A stretch of 64,000 nucleotides of DNA from Candidatus Bathyarchaeota archaeon B24 (GTDB lineage: Archaea; Thermoproteota; CALKCG01; B24). Made by a program: the position numbers and the translations under genes. This document shows, in pieces, positions 382 to 19,808 of the stretch; within the stretch, counting starts at the first letter, position 1; the number at the start of each line of letters is the position of its first letter. Location of the stretch: the NCBI GenBank assembly GCA_001593865.1, contig LUCB01000005.1:1-64000 (forward strand), read 5' to 3'. Below the pieces are notes generated by a model. It ran no database searches, was not told the DNA's origin, and saw nothing but the letters and a program-made list of their open reading frames with translations.

Positions 382-1464
382 ATGGGCAAACCCGAGTCAG
401 ATAAGAAGCCAGATAAGAGGGAGAGGCTGTTCCCGGCGATGCTTCTGATCCTACTGATCACGGCTATCCTATCGGCAGCCTCCATGGGATACCTATACAT
501 GGTCAACACCACACCGGTCGAGCTGCGTAGGGAGGAGACCCTAGCCACCTACACGCATCAGGCACGCTACACCTGGAGGGCATACCTCAAACCCAACGTG
601 GTCTACCTGAACGCGTCGAGGATAGAGGACACCACACCCATGTACATGAGGGTCGTGAAGCTCCTCGAGATAAGGCTCAGATACACGTTCACATCCAACC
701 CACAGGGGAACATAACCGTAAGATACCGGCTAGAGACGACCCTACGCTCCCCGAAGGAGGGTGGATGGAGCATACCCATCCGGCTTAACGCATCCTACAA
801 GGGCGAGGAGACGTTCAAGGGGGCGGCTAGGCTAGAGCTTAAACTCACCCTAGACCCAAACGGATACTGGGACCTGATAAAGACAGTCGAGAAGGAGACC
901 GGAACCTACTCCAGCGAATACCACATAGAGGTCAGCCCACACATAGAGGTCGAGGCAGACCTCGGCTCCCGGAAGCTGGAGGAAACCCTAAACCCCAAGC
1001 TCACGGTTAAGCTCCAGCTTAGAACAGACGTAGGAGACGTGATATCCCTCGAAGGGACAGAGTACAGCAAGCCAGGCCAGATAACGGAGACCAAGGTCAT
1101 AACCCAGGAGGAAGTGGTCAGACAAAGAGGATACGCCCTCATAGCCTCGATAACCAGCGTATCCGGCCTGGCTGGCTCGCTGATAGGGGTGGCTAAGACA
1201 AGGCCCCGGAGGAGGGAGGAGCCCATAACAAGGGAGCTGAAGCAGGTCGAAGAAATCCTGGTCGAGACGAAGGGCGAGCCCCACCTCAGGAGGGGACACA
1301 CGGTCGTGAGAGTATCCACGCTGGAAGACCTCTCGAAGCTCTCGGAGCTCCTTATGAAACCAATCCTAGCTTCCAAAGCCCAAGACCAAGCCATCCTATA
1401 CGTCCTAGACGGACAGGTGAAATACATATACAAGCTGGAGAGGAGGGAGGATGAGGCCACGTAG
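382..1464 (+). CDS. DUF5305-family membrane protein
   Basis: The 360-residue protein has an N-terminal membrane segment (about residues 15-37). A long beta-rich extracellular region with repeated acidic and threonine-rich strands (about 40-245) follows. A second hydrophobic segment (about 250-268) leads to a charged cytoplasmic tail of about 90 residues. This is the arrangement of archaeal DUF5305 proteins, whose function is not established. The next gene, a small winged-helix protein, starts 14 bases before this stop, which suggests translational coupling and shared regulation. The divergent SipW-type gene suggests a role in building or anchoring a surface structure (inference). ATG 382 was chosen because a TATA-like element lies about 40 bases upstream. 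Confidence 0.7.
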   Translation: MGKPESDKKPDKRERLFPAMLLILLITAILSAASMGYLYMVNTTPVELRREETLATYTHQARYTWRAYLKPNVVYLNASRIEDTTPMYMRVVKLLEIRLRYTFTSNPQGNITVRYRLETTLRSPKEGGWSIPIRLNASYKGEETFKGAARLELKLTLDPNGYWDLIKTVEKETGTYSSEYHIEVSPHIEVEADLGSRKLEETLNPKLTVKLQLRTDVGDVISLEGTEYSKPGQITETKVITQEEVVRQRGYALIASITSVSGLAGSLIGVAKTRPRRREEPITRELKQVEEILVETKGEPHLRRGHTVVRVSTLEDLSKLSELLMKPILASKAQDQAILYVLDGQVKYIYKLERREDEAT

Positions 1465-1747
1465 GAGAAGCAGGCTAGAGATACTATACCTCATACTCAA
1501 GAGCTGCGAGAAGGGAGCGTCGAAGACCCAGATAACCTACGACGCCAGGATAAACTTCAGGATATCCATGCAATACCTCAACCTTTTAGAAGAGAGAAAC
1601 CTAGTTCAAACCCAGCAGGTGGGAGACCGAAGCATATACAAGCTAACAGAGAAGGGAAGCCTTCTACTACACCACCTGGAGGAGGCTGTGAAGTTGCTTC
1701 AAGCCGACGGCATACCCCTACCGGGAGGCGCCTCTACGGAGGGCTAA
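1451..1747 (+). CDS. Small winged-helix DNA-binding protein (ArnR1-like)
   Basis: A 98-residue protein matching the short archaeal winged-helix type (HTH_45/ArnR1-like): a basic N-terminus, an ASKTQITYDARINFR recognition region, and the wing ending YKLTEKG. It overlaps the DUF5305 stop by 14 bases, so the two are probably translated together, and it may regulate the surface-protein locus. Its stop overlaps the stop of the convergent gene at 1744 by four bases (CTAA). The function as a regulator follows from the fold; its targets are unknown. Confidence 0.72.
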   Translation: MRPRRRSRLEILYLILKSCEKGASKTQITYDARINFRISMQYLNLLEERNLVQTQQVGDRSIYKLTEKGSLLLHHLEEAVKLLQADGIPLPGGASTEG

Positions 1748-2108: not shown

Positions 2109-2369
2109 TCAGGAGAGGAGCTTCCTAAGCTCCCTACACACCTCGAGAAGCCTAACCCCCTTATCCGTCAACTCATACGCGTCGTTATCGTCGGAGTGCT
2201 TGATAAACCCCTTCCTCTCCAGAAAACCCAGGTATCTGCTAAGCTGCTTCCAGTTCAAGTTAGCCGCATACATGATGTGGGTCTTCCTCTTACCCTCCCC
2301 GACGCTGAGAAGAACGCTCTCAGCGATCTCGAGGAAACCCCTCCGCCCGGCTAGCCGCTCATACTCCAA
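2109..2369 (-). CDS. Small winged-helix DNA-binding protein (ArnR1-like)
   Basis: An 86-residue protein with the same plan as the 1451 gene: a helical start, KTHIMYAANLNWKQLSRYLGFLERKG as the helix-turn-helix, then a wing ending YELTDKG and a C-terminal helix that may dimerise. This is the HTH_45/ArnR1-like type common in archaea. It sits alone in an AT-rich neighbourhood, flanked by other regulators, so its target cannot be read from an operon. The start is the first ATG after an AT-rich promoter-like stretch. Confidence 0.7.
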   Translation of the reverse strand: MEYERLAGRRGFLEIAESVLLSVGEGKRKTHIMYAANLNWKQLSRYLGFLERKGFIKHSDDNDAYELTDKGVRLLEVCRELRKLLS

Positions 2370-3862: not shown

Positions 3863-3978
3863 GCGGGGGTAGCCAAGCCTGGCCTAAGGCGCAGCGCTGA
3901 GGTGGGCTATCCCATGGACAGCCCTCAGAACCGCTGTGGGGTAGCCCTTCGTGGGTTCGAATCCCACCCCCCGCACCA
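3863..3978 (+). tRNA. tRNA-Leu(GAG) with 28-base intron
   Basis: The acceptor GCGGGGG pairs with CCCCCGC and is followed by A and an encoded CCA. The T arm is GTGGG/CCCAC with TTCGAAT, and the variable arm is long, as in class II leucine tRNA. The anticodon stem CAGCG/CGCTG encloses anticodon GAG (3899-3901). An intron at 3903-3930 interrupts the loop after position 37. It forms a canonical bulge-helix-bulge: CTGA pairs with TCAG, with bulges GG|T and AA|C, and an intron stem GGGCT/AGCCC. Removing it restores a 7-base loop. It would read CUC and CUU codons. Confidence 0.93.
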
Positions 3979-4032
3979 ATTGCCCAACCCCACCAAACAG
4001 AAAAAGTTAATTATCCGCAAAGCAACCCAGAC

Positions 4033-5403
4033 GTGAAGGTGGAGTATTTAAATTTGAAAAGAGTTAGAAAACATCGGCGTAGCAGTTTCCAAAAATATAT
4101 TCTGATGGCTTTACTGAAAGAGGGCTCTTTGAGTCTTAAAGAGTTGGAGGAAAGAATATTCGCGTTTGTTTACCATTTTCACGGATTTGGGTACAGCCTA
4201 CATGAGGAAGTTGAGAAAAAGGTATTTAGTTTTCTCTCTTGGTTTGGATATGAGCCAAAAGAGGATTATTCTACAAGGATGAAAAAATGGCGTGAAAAAC
4301 ATGAACAACAAATCAACGTCCAGCTGGAATGCGAAGGTTTAATTGAACAGGGCATGCTAAAGCTAAACGAAGAAAACAAGTATGAGCTAACTAAAAAGGG
4401 GAGAGAAGAAGCTGAAAAAAGCATAAAGGAGACGGAAAAAGCTGCAATTTCATTTAGAGATCGCTTGTTAAGCCCAACGGCAGCCGCAAGAAACACGGTT
4501 ATCGCTGATTTCCTCCTGGCGGTGATGAAACTCTTAGCCGGTTTCCTTAGCGCCAGTGTCGGTTTAATCGCAGACGGTGCAGACGCCGCTGTAGATACGG
4601 TTTCGGCTTCCGTCGTGTGGGCTGGAATAAAGTTCAAAAAGGAATTTTTGGGAACATTGATCATCATCTCGATGATGTTCATAACCTCCATTAGCGTTGG
4701 ATACGAGTCGGTAGGCAAGATCATGGACGCTATAACCGCGGCAATACCGCCGATATCGTTGCCTCACCTAGTTGTCGCAGTCGAAGGGGTAGCGCTCGTA
4801 GCGGCGGCTATTCTGTATTTTTATCAACGTTATGTAGGAAAAAGCAACGGAAGTTTAGCGCTTATTTCGCAGTCGATCGACTCCAAGAACCACATCTATG
4901 TTGCAGCCGCGGTTATCATAGGAGCCGTTTTCTCAGTCTTCGGGATACACTTTGTCGACGCGTTAATCGGCACGTTTGTCGCCGCTAGAATTCTCGTAGA
5001 TGGGTTTGAATTGTCAAAAGAGGCCCTCTCTTCCATGAAGGGGGAGGAAACCGATTTCTCCAAATATGAAATACCACTCGAAAGGCGTTGGCGTCTAAGT
5101 AAGCTAGAGACCTTCAGAACCTGGGTGCTGTACTCGATCAAAGAAGATAATCTGAACACAAAAGAAGAATTAATTAATTCGTTGGAAAGAGCATTCAAAC
5201 CAAAGTATATTCCCATAATAAGCGGGTTCAAATTTGCTCTTGGGAAAGGGTTTGATTTTGAAAAGGAGTTTGAAAATATCATTAAACCGTTACTGGAGGA
5301 AAAATTCATAGTTAAAAAGGGTGAAAACTTTATTTTGACAGAAGATGGTAAAAGACGGGTCTGCAGAATATTCAAAAGCATCAGATATCGTCAAAGTAGA
5401 TAA
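4033..5403 (+). CDS. Cation diffusion facilitator-like membrane protein with winged-helix-like ends
   Basis: The middle (about residues 150-335) has the helices of a cation diffusion facilitator. A first motif, GLIADGADAAVDT, corresponds to the usual metal-binding DxxxD/HxxxD helix, and a later SIDSKNH begins the second half. Residues about 15-135 look like a winged-helix domain (LLKEGSLSLKELEERIF ... KYELTKKGREE). Residues about 360-450 resemble another winged helix ending in a wing (FILTEDGKR). The call is therefore a metal transporter fused to DNA-binding-like domains at both ends. The gene is clearly AT-richer than its housekeeping neighbours. The GTG at 4033 is uncertain: a TATTTAAAT element at 4043-4051 could instead be the promoter, with translation from ATG 4105. 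Confidence 0.62.
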   Translation: MKVEYLNLKRVRKHRRSSFQKYILMALLKEGSLSLKELEERIFAFVYHFHGFGYSLHEEVEKKVFSFLSWFGYEPKEDYSTRMKKWREKHEQQINVQLECEGLIEQGMLKLNEENKYELTKKGREEAEKSIKETEKAAISFRDRLLSPTAAARNTVIADFLLAVMKLLAGFLSASVGLIADGADAAVDTVSASVVWAGIKFKKEFLGTLIIISMMFITSISVGYESVGKIMDAITAAIPPISLPHLVVAVEGVALVAAAILYFYQRYVGKSNGSLALISQSIDSKNHIYVAAAVIIGAVFSVFGIHFVDALIGTFVAARILVDGFELSKEALSSMKGEETDFSKYEIPLERRWRLSKLETFRTWVLYSIKEDNLNTKEELINSLERAFKPKYIPIISGFKFALGKGFDFEKEFENIIKPLLEEKFIVKKGENFILTEDGKRRVCRIFKSIRYRQSR

Positions 5404-5619
5404 CCACCGAAAGTCCACAGAAACCAATAGAGCCTAGACAACCCTCTGTTTTCGATCTCCGCCGGGAAATTTTTTGTTTAAAAATAGATGAACAAAATTG
5501 TACGTTAACGTTCTATAATCTTATTTAGGATAAGGAATTTGATGAAGCCATAGGAAGCCGTATCAGAATGGGGAAAAATAGATGCCCAGAGAGATGGCTT
5601 TCAAAGACCTCTCTGAGCA
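5404..5619. other. AT-rich spacer between convergent genes
   Basis: A 216-base spacer between two genes that end toward each other. It has T-runs (AATTTTTTG) consistent with archaeal transcription termination. A TTGATGA near 5538 lacks a paired D box, so no C/D sRNA is called. No coding signal is seen. Confidence 0.35.
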
Positions 5620-7791
5620 TCACATCCGGGTTTTTCTGCGCAGCTGGGTTATGAGCGTCTTCGCTACATCGTAGAGTCTAGCTTGTCGAAAGCCGCCGCG
5701 GTTTACCAACATAGCAACAGCAGCCCAGACCGCTATCGGTAAAACAATCCACCAGTAACTTGTCAACGCCTGACGGGCGAGGGAGACGAAGGTCAAAGGC
5801 CTGTTCACAGGTTCAACCTCTCCCCCGACCGGGATCGTTATATAAACCGTTAACGTGTCTACACCCACTCCCCCGTCGTCGTCCGTCACGGTTAGAGTGA
5901 CCGTGTAGGTAATTGCCGCTACACCGCCATACTCGTAAGTATGGGTGGGGGTCAGGGTGCCGGTGGCAGTGGTTCCGTCTCCGAAATCCCAAACTATCGT
6001 GTGGGTGTCTAACACGCCAGGGTCTGTGAAGCTTCCGCTGAAACTGACCGTAGCTTCGTTACACCCACCGATTACCGTTTGGTCAGGACCAGCGTCCACT
6101 GTCGGGTCGACGTTGTAGACGGTTACCGTAGTGCTAGTCTCATTCGTTAGACCATCGTCATCTGTAACCCTTAGGTTGATAGTGCCCGTATAGTCATCGT
6201 TCCACGTATGCGTGACTGTAGGGCTGGTAGTGCTTTCATCATATGTCCCATCGCCGTCCCAGTCCCACTCGTAAAGCGTTATGGTTCCATCTGGGTCGTA
6301 TGAGCCAGACGCGTCGAAGGTTATAGGCGAGCCTTCATAGCCTGTGTAAGGCCCATCGGCATCAGCTACAGGGTAGGTCTGAATCGTTAGGGTTGCCGGG
6401 TCTGTGCACCAGTTGTTCGTCTCGTTATACTCGGGTATATCTTCCCCAGAGTCGACCCAGGCGGTTATCGCGTAGGTTCCGCTGGACACCCCGGTCGTGT
6501 CCCAGTCGAAGACTACGCTCGTAGACCCGCCGGATGCGAGGGTGACGGTTTTCGTCCCGATTGTTATCTCATCTCCTATAACGGATGTATCTAGGTCCGC
6601 ATACAAAGTTACGTCGAAGGTCTCTTGCAGGTCTCCGTTATTACTCACCACGACGGTTATGGATTCAACCGTTCCAGATGGGACCTCGGTATGCGGGTGG
6701 CTTTGGCTATCCGCAGAGACATCCTCAAGCTCGAACTCCACATCGAGGGTCTCCCAGTAGATGCTCCAATACGATGTACCATCGATTACTATCGTACAGT
6801 TATAGTTCATATTCATCTTCACCAAGAATATTCCGTTAGGCCTATTACCCCCAGCCGTACCCCAACTGTTCACCATAATCCAATAATGTTTATCGGGGTC
6901 TGGGTCTGTGTCGTTGTATCCCACGCATAGAACTGCGTGACAACCTCCCTCATCTGTCATCGTCAGTCCGCAATACGGGTCTGGGTCCCAGATAGCGTCT
7001 TCAGGCTCATTCCACCAGAAAGTTCTAAATCCTTCCGTAAAGTTCCAAAGGCAATATACGAAATAGACAGCCCTATTCTGGTGGAGAACGTTCTTTATAT
7101 TGGCGATGGCTTCCTCTCTACTTATACCATGCGTTTCTATAGATTCAGCTACACATTTTTTAATTCCATACCTAGGCACGGTGGATATGGTATTACAAGG
7201 AACTCCTGTACCGGCGGAGCAGGTTCTCCCCCCATCTTGCCAGTGAGCGTTCGTGTTAGACCATGGAATTATGAAACCCTTGCTTGCATACCAGTCTGCA
7301 AACATCTCTAGGTTGCCTCCGCAACAGGCCCATTTACCGGGTGCTCCTGCATTATAACATGAAGTAAAATACTGAACAGATAGCCTGTCGAATATTCCTT
7401 CTTGAACGTCTAGAGCTATCTCTATTGTACCTGTCCCAGCCCAGACCCAGCAATTTCCACAGCTTCCCTGATTGCGTTCCGCCGGAATATAGTTTAAGTG
7501 AGGGAGAAGGCTGAAATATTGCCCAGACGACTGTTTAATCGACTCTTGAAACGAAGGTTCTATCGTTACCCTAGGAATTTTTTCATGCGTCTCCATAAGC
7601 TTCTCCATAATCTCCGGGGTAACTTTCATGATAGCGCAGCATTCCTCAAATTCGTCATCTTGTGAGCCTAGGCTACTGTTTCCATTGCTGAAGCATCCAC
7701 ATTGCGCGGTGTAAATACTTATGGGCGGCATGAGGATCAAAAGAACGGTCAAGATTGTTAACATAGTTATAGAATTCGAGCGTTTTCCCAT
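5620..7791 (-). CDS. Secreted papain-like cysteine protease with CARDB and PKD domains
   Basis: The 723-residue precursor has a signal peptide (about 8-28) and a C1A peptidase domain (about 95-345). The active-site cysteine is in NQGSCGNCW, the histidine in GGCHAVLCVGYN and the asparagine in VNSWG. There follow a CARDB-like domain (about 350-465), two PKD domains (about 470-560 and 560-650; both end with a VTDDDG element) and a C-terminal membrane helix (YWWIVLPIAVWAAVAMLV) before a basic tail. It should therefore be tethered outside the cell and degrade protein or peptides. Bathyarchaeal lineages have been proposed to degrade detrital protein. A TATA element at 7821-7829 serves this strand; the divergent neighbour may be functionally linked. 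Confidence 0.85.
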   Translation of the reverse strand: MGKRSNSITMLTILTVLLILMPPISIYTAQCGCFSNGNSSLGSQDDEFEECCAIMKVTPEIMEKLMETHEKIPRVTIEPSFQESIKQSSGQYFSLLPHLNYIPAERNQGSCGNCWVWAGTGTIEIALDVQEGIFDRLSVQYFTSCYNAGAPGKWACCGGNLEMFADWYASKGFIIPWSNTNAHWQDGGRTCSAGTGVPCNTISTVPRYGIKKCVAESIETHGISREEAIANIKNVLHQNRAVYFVYCLWNFTEGFRTFWWNEPEDAIWDPDPYCGLTMTDEGGCHAVLCVGYNDTDPDPDKHYWIMVNSWGTAGGNRPNGIFLVKMNMNYNCTIVIDGTSYWSIYWETLDVEFELEDVSADSQSHPHTEVPSGTVESITVVVSNNGDLQETFDVTLYADLDTSVIGDEITIGTKTVTLASGGSTSVVFDWDTTGVSSGTYAITAWVDSGEDIPEYNETNNWCTDPATLTIQTYPVADADGPYTGYEGSPITFDASGSYDPDGTITLYEWDWDGDGTYDESTTSPTVTHTWNDDYTGTINLRVTDDDGLTNETSTTVTVYNVDPTVDAGPDQTVIGGCNEATVSFSGSFTDPGVLDTHTIVWDFGDGTTATGTLTPTHTYEYGGVAAITYTVTLTVTDDDGGVGVDTLTVYITIPVGGEVEPVNRPLTFVSLARQALTSYWWIVLPIAVWAAVAMLVNRGGFRQARLYDVAKTLITQLRRKTRM

Positions 7792-7923
7792 ATACCTCTT
7801 TCAACATTCTGTAGGAACGTGTATATAACAATTTCCGCTTAAAAATAGTTTTAGCCAAAGTTTCACATAAAAATGTTCTAACCAATAGAGTAAAATACCT
7901 GTAATACGGAGATACCTAATGAC
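7792..7923. promoter_or_regulatory. Divergent promoter region, protease and repeat protein
   Basis: On the minus strand GTTATATAC (7821-7829) lies about 30 bases before the protease start. On the plus strand AGTAAAATAC near 7890 precedes ATG 7924 by a similar distance. The 132-base spacer thus probably drives both genes and could allow joint control. Confidence 0.5.
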
Positions 7924-8646
7924 ATGGTTATAAGAGAAGCCTCACGCTCATCTGCAGTCGTGATCTTTGCCATAGCTCTGCTAACACTTACTGTAGGAGC
8001 CTCTATCTTACTATTAGACACCATCAAGGTAAAGATAAATGAGCCGACCGAAAAGGTGAGAAAACTCGTGATAGAGTACATCCGGCAAAAACATCCTGAG
8101 GCTATCGCATTTGTAGGAGAAAACCTAACATGGATTTTAGAAAAACAAATATCCGCTGAAACTGGGGTTGAAGAATATGTCTACATAAACGGGTCTTGTA
8201 AAGTTAAAATTTGCCGAGCATCGTCAATTCACTTGTCGTATGACGTCGAGATGATATACGATGGAGGAATTTTCTGGATAGGGAAAGTAGAAAACGATAA
8301 GGTTATAGAAATGCTTTACAAGTTCAGCATAGGTGGAGAAGGGGAAAAGATGGACGTAAAGATATTGGTTCTGGAATACATAAGACGGCACCATCCTGAT
8401 GCAGCCTCTCTTATAGGTGATCCTTACAAGATAAATTGGACAAAGAAGTCTTCAGAGATCAAAGTGGGATATTCGAAAACTGTCTATGTATACGATGACT
8501 GGGAACTGACCATAGGACATGCTACGACGGCTGAACTCATATATGAGGTGGAGGTCAAGAATGTTAAGGAGGGAATTATCTGGGTGGGGACCGTCTCCAA
8601 TAGAACAGTTAAAGAAACCAGTTACAGCCATTTTAAAAGTCGATAG
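7924..8646 (+). CDS. Membrane-anchored protein with two tandem repeats
   Basis: After an N-terminal membrane anchor (about residues 12-33) the 240-residue protein contains two copies of a ~95-residue unit. Copy one begins RKLVIEYIRQKHPEA and copy two ILVLEYIRRHHPDA. Each continues through a YVY element, a central (S/A)xxLxY(D/E)VE strand and an IxWxGxV strand near its end. The pattern resembles small alpha/beta modules of the PepSY or inhibitor/propeptide kind, but I cannot name the family. It is transcribed divergently from the papain-like protease and shares its AT-richer composition, so a role as cognate inhibitor or folding partner is possible (inference). Confidence 0.6.
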   Translation: MVIREASRSSAVVIFAIALLTLTVGASILLLDTIKVKINEPTEKVRKLVIEYIRQKHPEAIAFVGENLTWILEKQISAETGVEEYVYINGSCKVKICRASSIHLSYDVEMIYDGGIFWIGKVENDKVIEMLYKFSIGGEGEKMDVKILVLEYIRRHHPDAASLIGDPYKINWTKKSSEIKVGYSKTVYVYDDWELTIGHATTAELIYEVEVKNVKEGIIWVGTVSNRTVKETSYSHFKSR

Positions 8647-8857
8647 TGGTTTCGCATCGTAAAAACAGAAACGTCTATCATCTAGATTTCCAAGGTATTA
8701 CCTCGGGTAATTTGTCATGGAAAAACCTAGAGGGGAGGAGGGGTCGGATTCACCATACGAGATTACCAGGGCTTATGGGAAGTCGACTTGAGACCTAGCG
8801 AGACCCTGTCTCTGTCGAGAGGCGGCTTTCGGTTTTGAATAATGGAAAATTGTCGAT
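8647..8857. other. Intergenic region without clear gene
   Basis: A 211-base spacer between convergent genes. A 24-codon ORF at 8717-8791 is visible but has no ribosome site or family resemblance, so it is not called as a gene. Confidence 0.3.
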
Positions 8858-9205
8858 CTAGACGCCTTGTTTAGGTTTTAGAGCGAGTCTTAAAGACCCT
8901 GAGACACCGCTCGGTATTCCGACCGAAACTACTATGCTTATATCCGTTAGGTCGTAGTTTTCCCCAAACTCCCTTTGAACATCCTCTATCTTCTCCCTTA
9001 GCCACTTGACGGGGTTAAACGCCTTAACCTCCCTCGTCTCGAGTATATCAAGCCTAACTTCATCCAAAACATATACACCTCCTAAAGGTAGCTCTGGGCT
9101 AGAGTTAATAAGCCTGTGGGCGGGTCCGGCCAGGCTCAAGCCGGCGACCATCCGCACAACCCTCTTGAACCGATGTAGATCTCCGTGATTTTGCTTAGAA
9201 AACAT
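8858..9205 (-). CDS. Hypothetical protein
   Basis: An open frame of 115 residues with normal codon use in its second half (VKWLREKIEDVQREFGENYDL, then ISIVVSVGIPSGVSGS). I do not recognise a family. ATG 9205 and ATG 9151 (giving 97 residues) are both possible starts. The N-terminal part, around MVAGLSLAGPAHRL, is encoded by DNA resembling the 3' half of the nearby tRNA-Val. The gene may have been extended over, or formed from, a tRNA remnant. No membrane segment or metal motif is visible. Confidence 0.5.
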   Translation of the reverse strand: MFSKQNHGDLHRFKRVVRMVAGLSLAGPAHRLINSSPELPLGGVYVLDEVRLDILETREVKAFNPVKWLREKIEDVQREFGENYDLTDISIVVSVGIPSGVSGSLRLALKPKQGV

Positions 9206-9302
9206 GAAAAACTACTTGTGTTTTAAACATGGTTTTTGATACCGGCTTGGAGACCTAAAGACTAATAGCCTATCGGCTATGTTAGATTTCATGGTGTGTT
9301 TC

Positions 9303-11243
9303 ATGGGTAAACCTGAGAGGCTCGTCTTGATAGGGTTTGACGCGCCGATAGCGTCTAGGGTGTACCGGTATGCGGTGGAGGGGGAGCTTCCGAACATAGG
9401 GAGGCTCATAGAGAACGGCGTGTACTTCGAAAATTGCCTGGTGCCGCATCCGACCATAACGCCGCCGAACTGGACGACCATAGCGACCGGGGCGTGGCCT
9501 GGAACCCACGGGATAACCTGCTTCAACATGCATAAGCCCGGCATGCCTCTTGATGAGACCTATCCAGCGTTTGATTCACGCGACTGCGAGGCTGAGTACC
9601 TCTGGGAGGCTGCGGGGAGGGACGGTGCTTTAAGCATCCTAGTCAACTACCCGTCGACTTGGCCTCCTAGAGGCGATAAGGTCGTCCAGGTTGGCGGTGG
9701 CGGGTTGTCTATGAACGAGTGGAGGATAGGTGTTAAAGGAGGTTACAGGTGTTCCCTATGCGAGTGTATGCTCTTCTCGACCGAGGAGTATCCATTGGCT
9801 TCGGTTTTAAGCCTCAGAGAGGCTGAGGGATGGGTGAACCTGCCTTCGAACGTCGAGAGGGCTTTAGAGGCAGAGGTCAAGCCATACTTTCCCCGGGCTC
9901 TGTATAGGGTTGAACCGGTCTCTTGGTGGCTTCTGCTGCTCGACTATGGTGGAGGCTTTCAGGAGGCTATCCTTTCTGAGCGTAAGGACTTCGAGAAGGC
10001 GTTCGCTAGGCTTCGTAGAGGCGAGTGGAGCAGGCTTATTAAGATGACGTTTAAGACCGAGCGGGGTAGGGTTAAGGCAGCCTTTAAAGCTAAACTCCTA
10101 GAGCTGTCCGAGGACGGGTCTAGGGTTAAGCTCCTCATATCCCCCATAGGTGCCCTGGAAGGCTGGGGGCACCCCGAGGAAGTATGTAGCCTGCTGGAGT
10201 TTGAAGACCTCTATCCCGTCGCTTCTCATGGCTTCTACTCAGCCCTGAACCTGGGCTGGATAGACGTGGACACGTTCCTCGAGGCCGTGGACATGGAGCA
10301 CAGGTGGCTTGCCGAGGCTTCGAGAAGGCTTATGGATAAGTATCCTTGGAAGCTCTTCTTCATGCACGCCCACTGCCCAGACTGGGCTTACCACGCGTTC
10401 ATAAACAGGATAGACCCCTCTACGGCTAAGGATCCGGCTGAGGCTGAGCTCTATGGGAGGGTTGAGCTCGAGTTCTACCGAAGCCTGGATAGGATGGTCG
10501 GACGGATACTTGAGGGGGTTAGCCTAGAGGATACACTTGTGGTTTTGGTTTCAGACCACGGCGCTAAGCCTACGACGAGGAGGTTTGACCCGAGGGTGAT
10601 TCTAGAGAAGGCAGGCCTGCTCGTGTATAAGGTGGAGAACGGTGAGAGAAAGGTGGACTGGTCTAGGACCAAGGCTATACCTCAACGGTCCTCCTACATC
10701 TATGTGAACCTCAAGGGTAGAGACCCGCAGGGCATCGTAGACCCCGGCGAGTACGATAAGGTTAGAGACGAGATAATCAAAGCCCTGTACGATTATACAG
10801 ACCCTGAAACCGGTTTAAAGCCCGTGGTCTTCGCCCTTAAAAAGGAGGACGCTAGGATAATAGGCCTGCACGGCGATAGGGTCGGCGACGTGGTCTACGG
10901 GTTAAGAGCCGAATACGGCGGCCAGCATGGGGTCATAGTCACCACGGCAGAGTATGGTATAGGGTCGCTTAAGGGGTTACTTATAATGGCTGGACCCGGC
11001 GTCAAGAAGGGCGTGGTGATCGATAGGACGGTTTGGCTCACAGACGTGGCTCCAACAGTCTGCCACCTCATGGAGCTCCCGATACCTAGACAGGCCGAGG
11101 GAGGAATAATATATCAGGCTCTAGAAGACCCCGACGAAAAAACCAAGGAGCTTAAAAAGCTCAGAAGAAACTACCAGAGGCTCCTGGAGGCATATAAGAA
11201 AGAAGCCGAACTCACCCACACCTACTTCATGGAGGAAAACTAA
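9303..11243 (+). CDS. Type I phosphodiesterase/nucleotide pyrophosphatase-like hydrolase
   Basis: A cytosolic-looking member of the alkaline phosphatase superfamily, about 646 residues. Two-metal site elements are visible: LIGFDAP near the N-terminus, the threonine nucleophile in HPTITPPNWTTIATG, an HCPDWAYH region, and the late VSDHGAKP motif. Threonine at the nucleophile position favours phosphodiester or phosphate ester hydrolysis over sulfate esters. There is no signal peptide. The ORF track starts at 9279, but ATG 9303 follows a GGTG ribosome-site-like sequence and gives the family-typical start MGKPERLVLIGFD. The natural substrate cannot be inferred. The gene lies between a tRNA-Val-like fragment and tRNA-Val. 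Confidence 0.78.
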   Translation: MGKPERLVLIGFDAPIASRVYRYAVEGELPNIGRLIENGVYFENCLVPHPTITPPNWTTIATGAWPGTHGITCFNMHKPGMPLDETYPAFDSRDCEAEYLWEAAGRDGALSILVNYPSTWPPRGDKVVQVGGGGLSMNEWRIGVKGGYRCSLCECMLFSTEEYPLASVLSLREAEGWVNLPSNVERALEAEVKPYFPRALYRVEPVSWWLLLLDYGGGFQEAILSERKDFEKAFARLRRGEWSRLIKMTFKTERGRVKAAFKAKLLELSEDGSRVKLLISPIGALEGWGHPEEVCSLLEFEDLYPVASHGFYSALNLGWIDVDTFLEAVDMEHRWLAEASRRLMDKYPWKLFFMHAHCPDWAYHAFINRIDPSTAKDPAEAELYGRVELEFYRSLDRMVGRILEGVSLEDTLVVLVSDHGAKPTTRRFDPRVILEKAGLLVYKVENGERKVDWSRTKAIPQRSSYIYVNLKGRDPQGIVDPGEYDKVRDEIIKALYDYTDPETGLKPVVFALKKEDARIIGLHGDRVGDVVYGLRAEYGGQHGVIVTTAEYGIGSLKGLLIMAGPGVKKGVVIDRTVWLTDVAPTVCHLMELPIPRQAEGGIIYQALEDPDEKTKELKKLRRNYQRLLEAYKKEAELTHTYFMEEN

Positions 11244-11401
11244 CCAAAGACGACCGTTCATCGAGATCTCCGACGGCGTCTAGGGGGAAAGACTAAGAGA
11301 GGAGCTGAAAACGAGTAGAAAAGCTACTAATAGACATGGGATGTAGCCACCTGTAAACCTTTTTCCCTTTCCAGAAAAACCGAGAGAGAAAGAGAAAGCA
11401 G

Positions 11402-19703: not shown

Positions 19704-19808
19704 TGCGGGGGGTGGGATTCGAACCCACGTAGGGCCTACGCCCACGAGGTGGCTCATCTCTTGCTGATCTTGAGCCTCGCGCATTTAACCTGGCTCTGCC
19801 ACCCCCGC
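19704..19808 (-). tRNA. tRNA-Leu(CAA) with 18-base intron
   Basis: The acceptor GCGGGGG pairs with CCCCCGC, discriminator A, and CCA is not encoded. The D stem is GCA/TGC, the anticodon stem CGAGG/CCTCG, the variable arm long, and the T arm GTGGG/CCCAC. Anticodon CAA is followed by an intron at window positions 19751-19768. The bulge-helix-bulge is canonical: CTCA pairs with TGAG, bulges are AG|A and CC|A, and a 2-bp intron stem caps it. It would read UUG. Confidence 0.93.

Follow-up and report, generated by a model that had tools for sequence, protein, structure and literature searches.

A cation diffusion facilitator-like membrane core flanked by winged-helix domains in Bathyarchaeota and Asgard archaea

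Cation diffusion facilitators (CDFs) of the YiiP/FieF branch (PF01545, TIGR01297) are the described proteins closest to the one reported here. In YiiP, metal site B is formed by D70, H73 and H77 (PMC10617992). Neither the TM2-TM3 loop that carries site B nor the C-terminal ZT_dimer domain is universal in CDFs. Altered or all-acid metal sites, or the absence of site B or of the C-terminal domain, have been described for MceT (PMC6440370) and for OsMTP8.1 and MmCDF3 (PMC4995437). A second group of related systems comprises ToxR, CadC, BcrR and the archaeal one-component membrane regulators, in which a winged-helix (wH) or helix-turn-helix (HTH) domain and a transmembrane (TM) segment occupy the same chain (PMC10269533).

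Here, we describe a gene in a 64,000-nucleotide stretch of DNA from Candidatus Bathyarchaeota archaeon B24 (the window) whose product places a CDF-like core between two winged helices (wH-CDF-wH). We found no description of winged-helix CDF proteins in the open-access literature. The design apparently constitutes a large, undescribed family in Asgard archaea, a novelty that we regard as provisional.

Architecture and distribution of the family

The gene (4033-5403, + strand) is an intact open reading frame with a GTG start that encodes 456 residues and has full-length homologues. The Pfam profile Cation_efflux (PF01545) matched residues 156-334 with 64.2 bits (E 1.9e-17; cut-off 26.6) and also matched all 14 close relatives, while the NCBIfam CDF superfamily profile TIGR01297 scored 76.8 bits, just below its cut-off of 82.35. 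By both sequence search and fold search, the protein was nearest to FieF/YiiP, and the best Foldseek matches among solved structures were YiiP/FieF and ZnT (8f6k, E 6.6e-5). Using PF01545, hydropathy, the Foldseek match to YiiP and an HMM of the core, we delimited a six-helix CDF-like membrane core at residues 146-338 (4468-5046). No match to ZT_dimer was listed up to E = 1 in the Pfam search of the window protein and its relatives, and the Asgard relatives likewise showed no such domain.

We then modelled the window protein with AF2 from 14 orthologues. The model was weak overall (mean pLDDT 61.6), but the cores of both ends reached pLDDT 80-89 and showed the winged-helix order H-H-H-strand-strand-H. 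The N-terminal winged-helix domain spans residues 15-144 (4075-4464). Foldseek returned weak LmrR/IdeR/PadR-type matches for it, and hhalign aligned it with the C-terminal domain (probability 58, E 1e-4). Within this domain lies a helical insertion at residues 43-90 (4159-4302), including YHFHGFGYSLH; in the alignments, most members of subgroup A of the family have the whole insertion, and those of subgroup B a shortened one. A basic arm (residues 9-16, KRVRKHRR; 4057-4080) precedes the first winged helix, and a basic stretch at this position is common to both subgroups. The C-terminal winged-helix domain (residues 348-456; 5074-5400), which replaces the usual CDF C-terminal domain, was delimited from AF2 and the HTH_45 profile (PF14947). 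HTH_45 scored 24.0 bits on the window protein, just below its cut-off of 25.5; it matched 13 of the 14 close relatives at E ≤ 1 and exceeded the cut-off in two Asgard relatives (L072, 29.3 bits; L073, 32.5 bits). For a subgroup B protein, AF2 gave a mean pLDDT of 55.0, with ends that folded similarly and a poor core; the weak Foldseek matches of this model include MarR, PadR, IdeR/DtxR and MntR proteins. Hydropathy, AF2 and Foldseek together place TM segments and predicted winged-helix folds on one chain in the window protein.

Close relatives of the window protein were found at 14 named loci (37-89% identity), mainly in Bathyarchaeota. Thirteen carry the label Bathyarchaeota, Bathycorpusculum or Nitrososphaerota, and the remaining one, on a 4.5 kb contig, that of Sigynarchaeota. 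The same architecture was present in nine other genomes in a sample of 398 from the window phylum, partly overlapping the named loci. In a sample from the phylum of the Sigynarchaeota genome, which falls within the Asgard kingdom Promethearchaeati, the family profile had hits in 69 of 228 genomes (E ≤ 1e-6). Many of these matches span both ends, and several genomes carry more than one copy; the weaker hits include canonical CDFs matched over the core alone. The divergent Asgard relatives number about 36 proteins, tandem forms included. One form of ~467-480 residues has an additional membrane helix past the C-terminal winged helix, another of 565-623 residues has additional membrane segments, and a third of ~680 residues (L073-L076) contains two cores and three winged helices in the order wH-core-wH-core-wH. 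The winged helices are kept in essentially all family members despite their diverged sequences. As the architecture is conserved in dozens of homologues, it reflects neither a chance reading nor a chimera. The initial annotation of this locus had proposed a CDF core with a winged-helix-like segment at each end, to be checked by structure prediction and by a search for the same domain order elsewhere, and both approaches bore this arrangement out.

Several further copies and neighbours were noted. A Bathycorpusculum genome carries a frame-disrupted wH-CDF-wH copy (L028, and L003/L013) whose core is split across two frames. On the L002 contig (G000 contig 28), a canonical CDF gene at 74813-75433, in a 421-aa frame with a further C-terminal region, lies ~69 kb away from the wH form. 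A Ras-family GTPase gene, as is expected in Asgard genomes, adjoins one Asgard copy of the family.

Metal sites of the membrane core

We next compared metal sites in an alignment of 85 cores, comprising 56 wH-type cores and 29 canonical archaeal CDFs. In TM2, the site-A carboxylates D184 and D188 (4582-4596) form an intact DxxxD, as in FieF-type and Mn-type CDFs. The TM2-TM3 linker (residues 196-206; 4618-4650) is shortened: it comprises 11 residues in all 56 wH-type cores and 25 in all 29 canonical ones. Because the 14 missing residues carry site B, this site has been removed in wH-type cores.

TM5 is also rewired. Its second metal-site position is Asp in every canonical core (29/29) and in only two of the 56 wH cores, namely L069 and the degenerate first core of L064/L073. 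In the other wH cores, this position (residue 287) is H, N, S, G or A, and in subgroup B only small residues occur. The window motif SIDSKNH places D283 and H287 (4879-4893) where YiiP has His and Asp. The departure from canonical CDF metal sites suggested by the initial annotation was thus found in TM5 and in the site-B loop; the TM2 stretch that it had quoted as an altered ligand set, ADGADAAVDT, contains the intact DxxxD. Positions 184, 188 and 283 are acidic in nearly all wH members, with E at position 184 in many Asgard members, and the first core of the tandem L064/L073 lacks most site-A ligands. Conservation of the three carboxylates makes cation binding plausible, and, judged from the sequence comparison, it is plausible that the window protein senses or moves a cation. 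As known altered CDFs bind or move cations, TM5 rewiring alone is no proof of a new role.

The L069/L080 proteins have an intermediate character, combining canonical ligands (H, D, H, D; HxxxD/HxxxD) with a short loop and a C-terminal winged helix. In a quick maximum-likelihood tree, which has long branches and serves as a guide only, canonical CDFs grouped with L069/L080 at the base (SH-aLRT 92), with the other wH cores elsewhere. This pattern fits a stepwise origin in which loop loss and winged-helix gain would have preceded the ligand change.

Winged-helix ends, neighbouring genes and origin

To gauge the ends as DNA readers, we used the net charge of the recognition helix (H3), a proxy, taking as controls 28 stand-alone HTH_45 proteins encoded in related genomes (mean +1.0, minimum -2). 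Two of these winged-helix proteins, with neutral or basic H3, are encoded near the gene, at 1451-1747 (+) and 2109-2369 (-). In the AF2 model of the window protein, the N-terminal H3 comprises residues 91-106 (EQQINVQLECEGLIEQ; 4303-4350) and the C-terminal H3 residues 408-423 (DFEKEFENIIKPLLEE; 5254-5301). Both have a net charge of -4, lower than any of the 28 controls. The family average for the N-terminal H3 was -1.4, compared with +1.0 in the controls (Mann-Whitney p 1.3e-5, a value uncorrected for relatedness that overstates the independence of these sequences), which makes the N-terminal domain especially unlike a DNA reader. The C-terminal H3 averaged +0.3 (range -6 to +4), and some Asgard C-terminal helices are basic, at +4.

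Orthologues differ at several H3 positions predicted to point outward. Conservation is much stronger in the membrane core: subgroups A and B are 54% identical there, and 28% and 33% identical in the two ends. The gene starts ~55 bases past a tRNA, and the DNA upstream of it contains no notable operator-like inverted repeat, only short, chance-like ones. The initial annotation had envisaged a membrane-embedded sensor that binds DNA, possibly at a metal-responsive upstream operator. Its ends do fold as winged helices, with the DNA-binding face largely absent in the window protein, and DNA binding by this protein is not supported by the sequence evidence. For the family, DNA binding is possible, given the basic C-terminal H3 of some Asgard members and the basic N-terminal arm. 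This conserved arm is the main feature still favouring contact with nucleic acid or a membrane surface.

Gene neighbourhoods vary between subfamilies. In L016, L019, L020 and L021, which belong to the window subgroup, and in the Asgard L072, the gene immediately upstream, on the same strand, encodes a SAM methyltransferase; the frame of this gene is short in L016. An AbrB-type regulator precedes it in L020 and L072, giving a same-strand cluster of AbrB-type regulator, SAM methyltransferase(s) and wH-CDF-wH in both Bathyarchaeota and Asgard archaea (L020, 143-2289; L072, 1022-4101). The best NCBIfam matches of this methyltransferase, far below cut-offs, include arsenite methyltransferases. In the Asgard subfamily L084, L087, L095 and L096, nearby genes variously encode ArsR, ACR3 and an MntR/DtxR-like regulator, with ArsR over its cut-off in L096 and ACR3 in L095. 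A gene for GDT1, of a divalent cation/proton antiporter family, adjoins L077. The neighbours of other subfamilies are unrelated to these, and the wH-CDF-wH gene of the window has no metal gene beside it.

The gene has a GC content of 0.42, compared with 0.52 for the window, and was found in only this one of the seven sampled genomes of its class. As it is absent from the other six, it was probably acquired by this genome. With seven genomes sampled in the class and a single carrier among them, we also rejected a reading of the window genome as a bathyarchaeon. Immediately upstream lies an intron-bearing tRNA (3863-3978, +), which ARAGORN called Phe and which is probably tRNA-Leu(GAG), judging from its long variable arm and 28-nt intron. 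At this tRNA, a conserved flank gives way to the variable block in which the gene lies. A same-genus genome matches at 91% upstream of and through the tRNA-Leu, and from the tRNA end continues with the inverted sequence of window 19.7 kb. A second intron-bearing tRNA-Leu gene (19704-19808, -) lies there in inverted orientation and has a 32-base stretch in common with the first (97%); the pair bounds an inversion of ~15.7 kb relative to the same-genus genome. A 7.4 kb block (3979-11397), containing the wH-CDF-wH gene, a C1 peptidase and other genes, has no counterpart in that genome, which has only ~770 unique bases between the flanking tRNAs. The peptidase inside the block (5620-7791, -) is papain-like and carries CARDB and PKD domains. 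Most likely, the history combines an inversion between the two inverted tRNA-Leu genes with the gain of the block, the alternative being loss in relatives.

Other origins were considered and set aside. A search of 50,697 phage records and of viral contigs gave no match that would point to a phage or virus. A mobile element integrating at the tRNA was likewise rejected, as no integrase was seen beside the gene and the inversion and the 7.4 kb variable block explain the difference from the same-genus genome. The Sigynarchaeota locus L016, which is 89% identical, cannot be taken as proof of transfer from Asgard archaea, as its 4.5 kb contig may be mis-binned.

Possible roles and comparison with known systems

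We tentatively favour, at close to an even chance of being correct, a CDF-derived cation-binding dimer in which winged helices took the place of the regulatory domain and act chiefly by protein contact. An ancestral CDF would have lost its cytosolic regulatory C-terminal domain and site-B loop and gained winged helices at both ends. Like CDFs, the protein is most likely a dimer; the tandem wH-core-wH-core-wH Asgard forms fit an obligate pair of cores. A cation would bind the membrane pocket of D184, D188, D283 and H287, and the resulting helix movement, together with transport if this is retained, would couple to the dimer's four cytosolic winged helices. These would act as dimerisation and partner-docking modules, standing in for the usual metal-sensing domain. 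The proposal builds on a conserved architecture that lacks both site B and the usual C-terminal domain, on the rewired TM5 with conserved carboxylates and on the acidic H3 helices; to these it would add dimerisation, cation binding, coupling and an output by contact with protein rather than DNA. It is supported by the location of some Asgard members near the metal(loid) genes for ArsR, ACR3, an MntR/DtxR-like regulator and GDT1. The weak AF2 models, the basic Asgard C-terminal H3 helices and the differing neighbourhoods count against it.

A cation-responsive, membrane-bound transcription regulator, in which metal in the pocket rearranges DNA-binding winged helices, would account for the two winged helices per chain and the conserved basic arm before the first. 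It also suits the +4 C-terminal H3 and the ArsR, ACR3 and MntR/DtxR-like neighbours of some Asgard members, and membrane-bound regulators are widespread in archaea (PMC10269533). We nevertheless consider it rather unlikely, as both window H3 helices are more acidic than any control, several H3 positions vary among orthologues, and neither an operator upstream of the window gene nor a conserved target gene alongside was found. In a working cation/H+ exchanger of altered selectivity, the winged helices would merely stabilise the dimer, with no signalling. The TM5 site makes this improbable: its Asp, present in all 29 canonical cores, survives in just two wH cores, and Zn/H coupling in YiiP hinges on protonation of the TM5 His-Asp pair (PMC10617992). 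Moreover, subgroup B has only small residues at position 287, and one tandem form contains a core without ligands. An exchanger is credible in that cations are bound or moved by known CDFs that have an altered TM5 or lack site B or the C-terminal domain. TM5 substitutions can accompany the change of a CDF to a Na+/H+ antiporter, as in MceT (PMC6440370), and MmCDF3, a CDF without the cytoplasmic domain, is cited in PMC4995437 as still binding Zn and Cd. The high conservation of the core and its carboxylate pocket also agrees with exchange.

That the gene is a recent acquisition without a settled role in this genome is very unlikely. Its low GC content, its presence in one of seven class genomes and the absence of the 7.4 kb block from the same-genus genome are in line with this idea, as is the lack of the upstream methyltransferase seen in several of the closest relatives. 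Against it, the frame is intact, the product shares 72-89% identity with the nearest orthologues, and it retains the sites conserved in the family. A more far-reaching interpretation, doubtful on present evidence, is that a CDF turned into a cation-gated membrane receptor whose winged helices signal directly, in at least some members to DNA. The family would then represent an archaeal class of one-component metal receptors, expanded in Asgard archaea (with several paralogues in each genome and two-core tandem forms) and passed sideways to Bathyarchaeota and the window lineage.

If the cation-binding dimer with winged helices working mainly by protein contacts is the right reading, archaea, and Asgard archaea in particular, would have a widespread protein family in which one chain combines a cation pocket of transporter origin with winged-helix output domains. 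The apparent intermediate L080, with canonical ligands, a short loop and a C-terminal winged helix, allows each step from a transporter towards a possible receptor to be tested. The 14-residue deletion, exceptionless across the 85 cores compared, provides a simple marker of the family in other genomes.

With the YiiP/FieF branch, the window protein shares the six-helix core, the TM2 DxxxD, an acidic TM5 and the fold found by Foldseek. Unlike YiiP/FieF, it lacks the site-B loop and ZT_dimer and has winged helices at both ends, and in place of the TM5 His/Asp, wH-CDF-wH proteins have Asp/His (or N, S, G or A as the second residue). MceT (Na+/H+), Mn-CDFs such as OsMTP8.1, and MmCDF3 are similar in their altered or all-acid TM2/TM5 sites or missing site B or C-terminal domain, whereas their published descriptions include no winged helices. 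ZnT9/SLC30A9 (HUEL) is cited in PMC9231024 as having a region reported to be DNA-binding-domain-like (XPA), a likeness within the CDFs. It is a eukaryotic protein and has no evident relation to the winged helices. The XPA-like region of ZnT9/HUEL also differs in fold from a winged helix. Compared with regulators of the ToxR/CadC/BcrR type, which mostly have a single-pass anchor, the window protein has a pair of winged helices around a six-helix core derived from a transporter, without a DNA-binding face by the H3 charge proxy. Finally, its ends resemble HTH_45 (PF14947) and PadR/MarR/DtxR-type folds in their fold and weak profile match, and differ from them in their acidic H3, the large N-terminal insertion and the membrane-protein setting.
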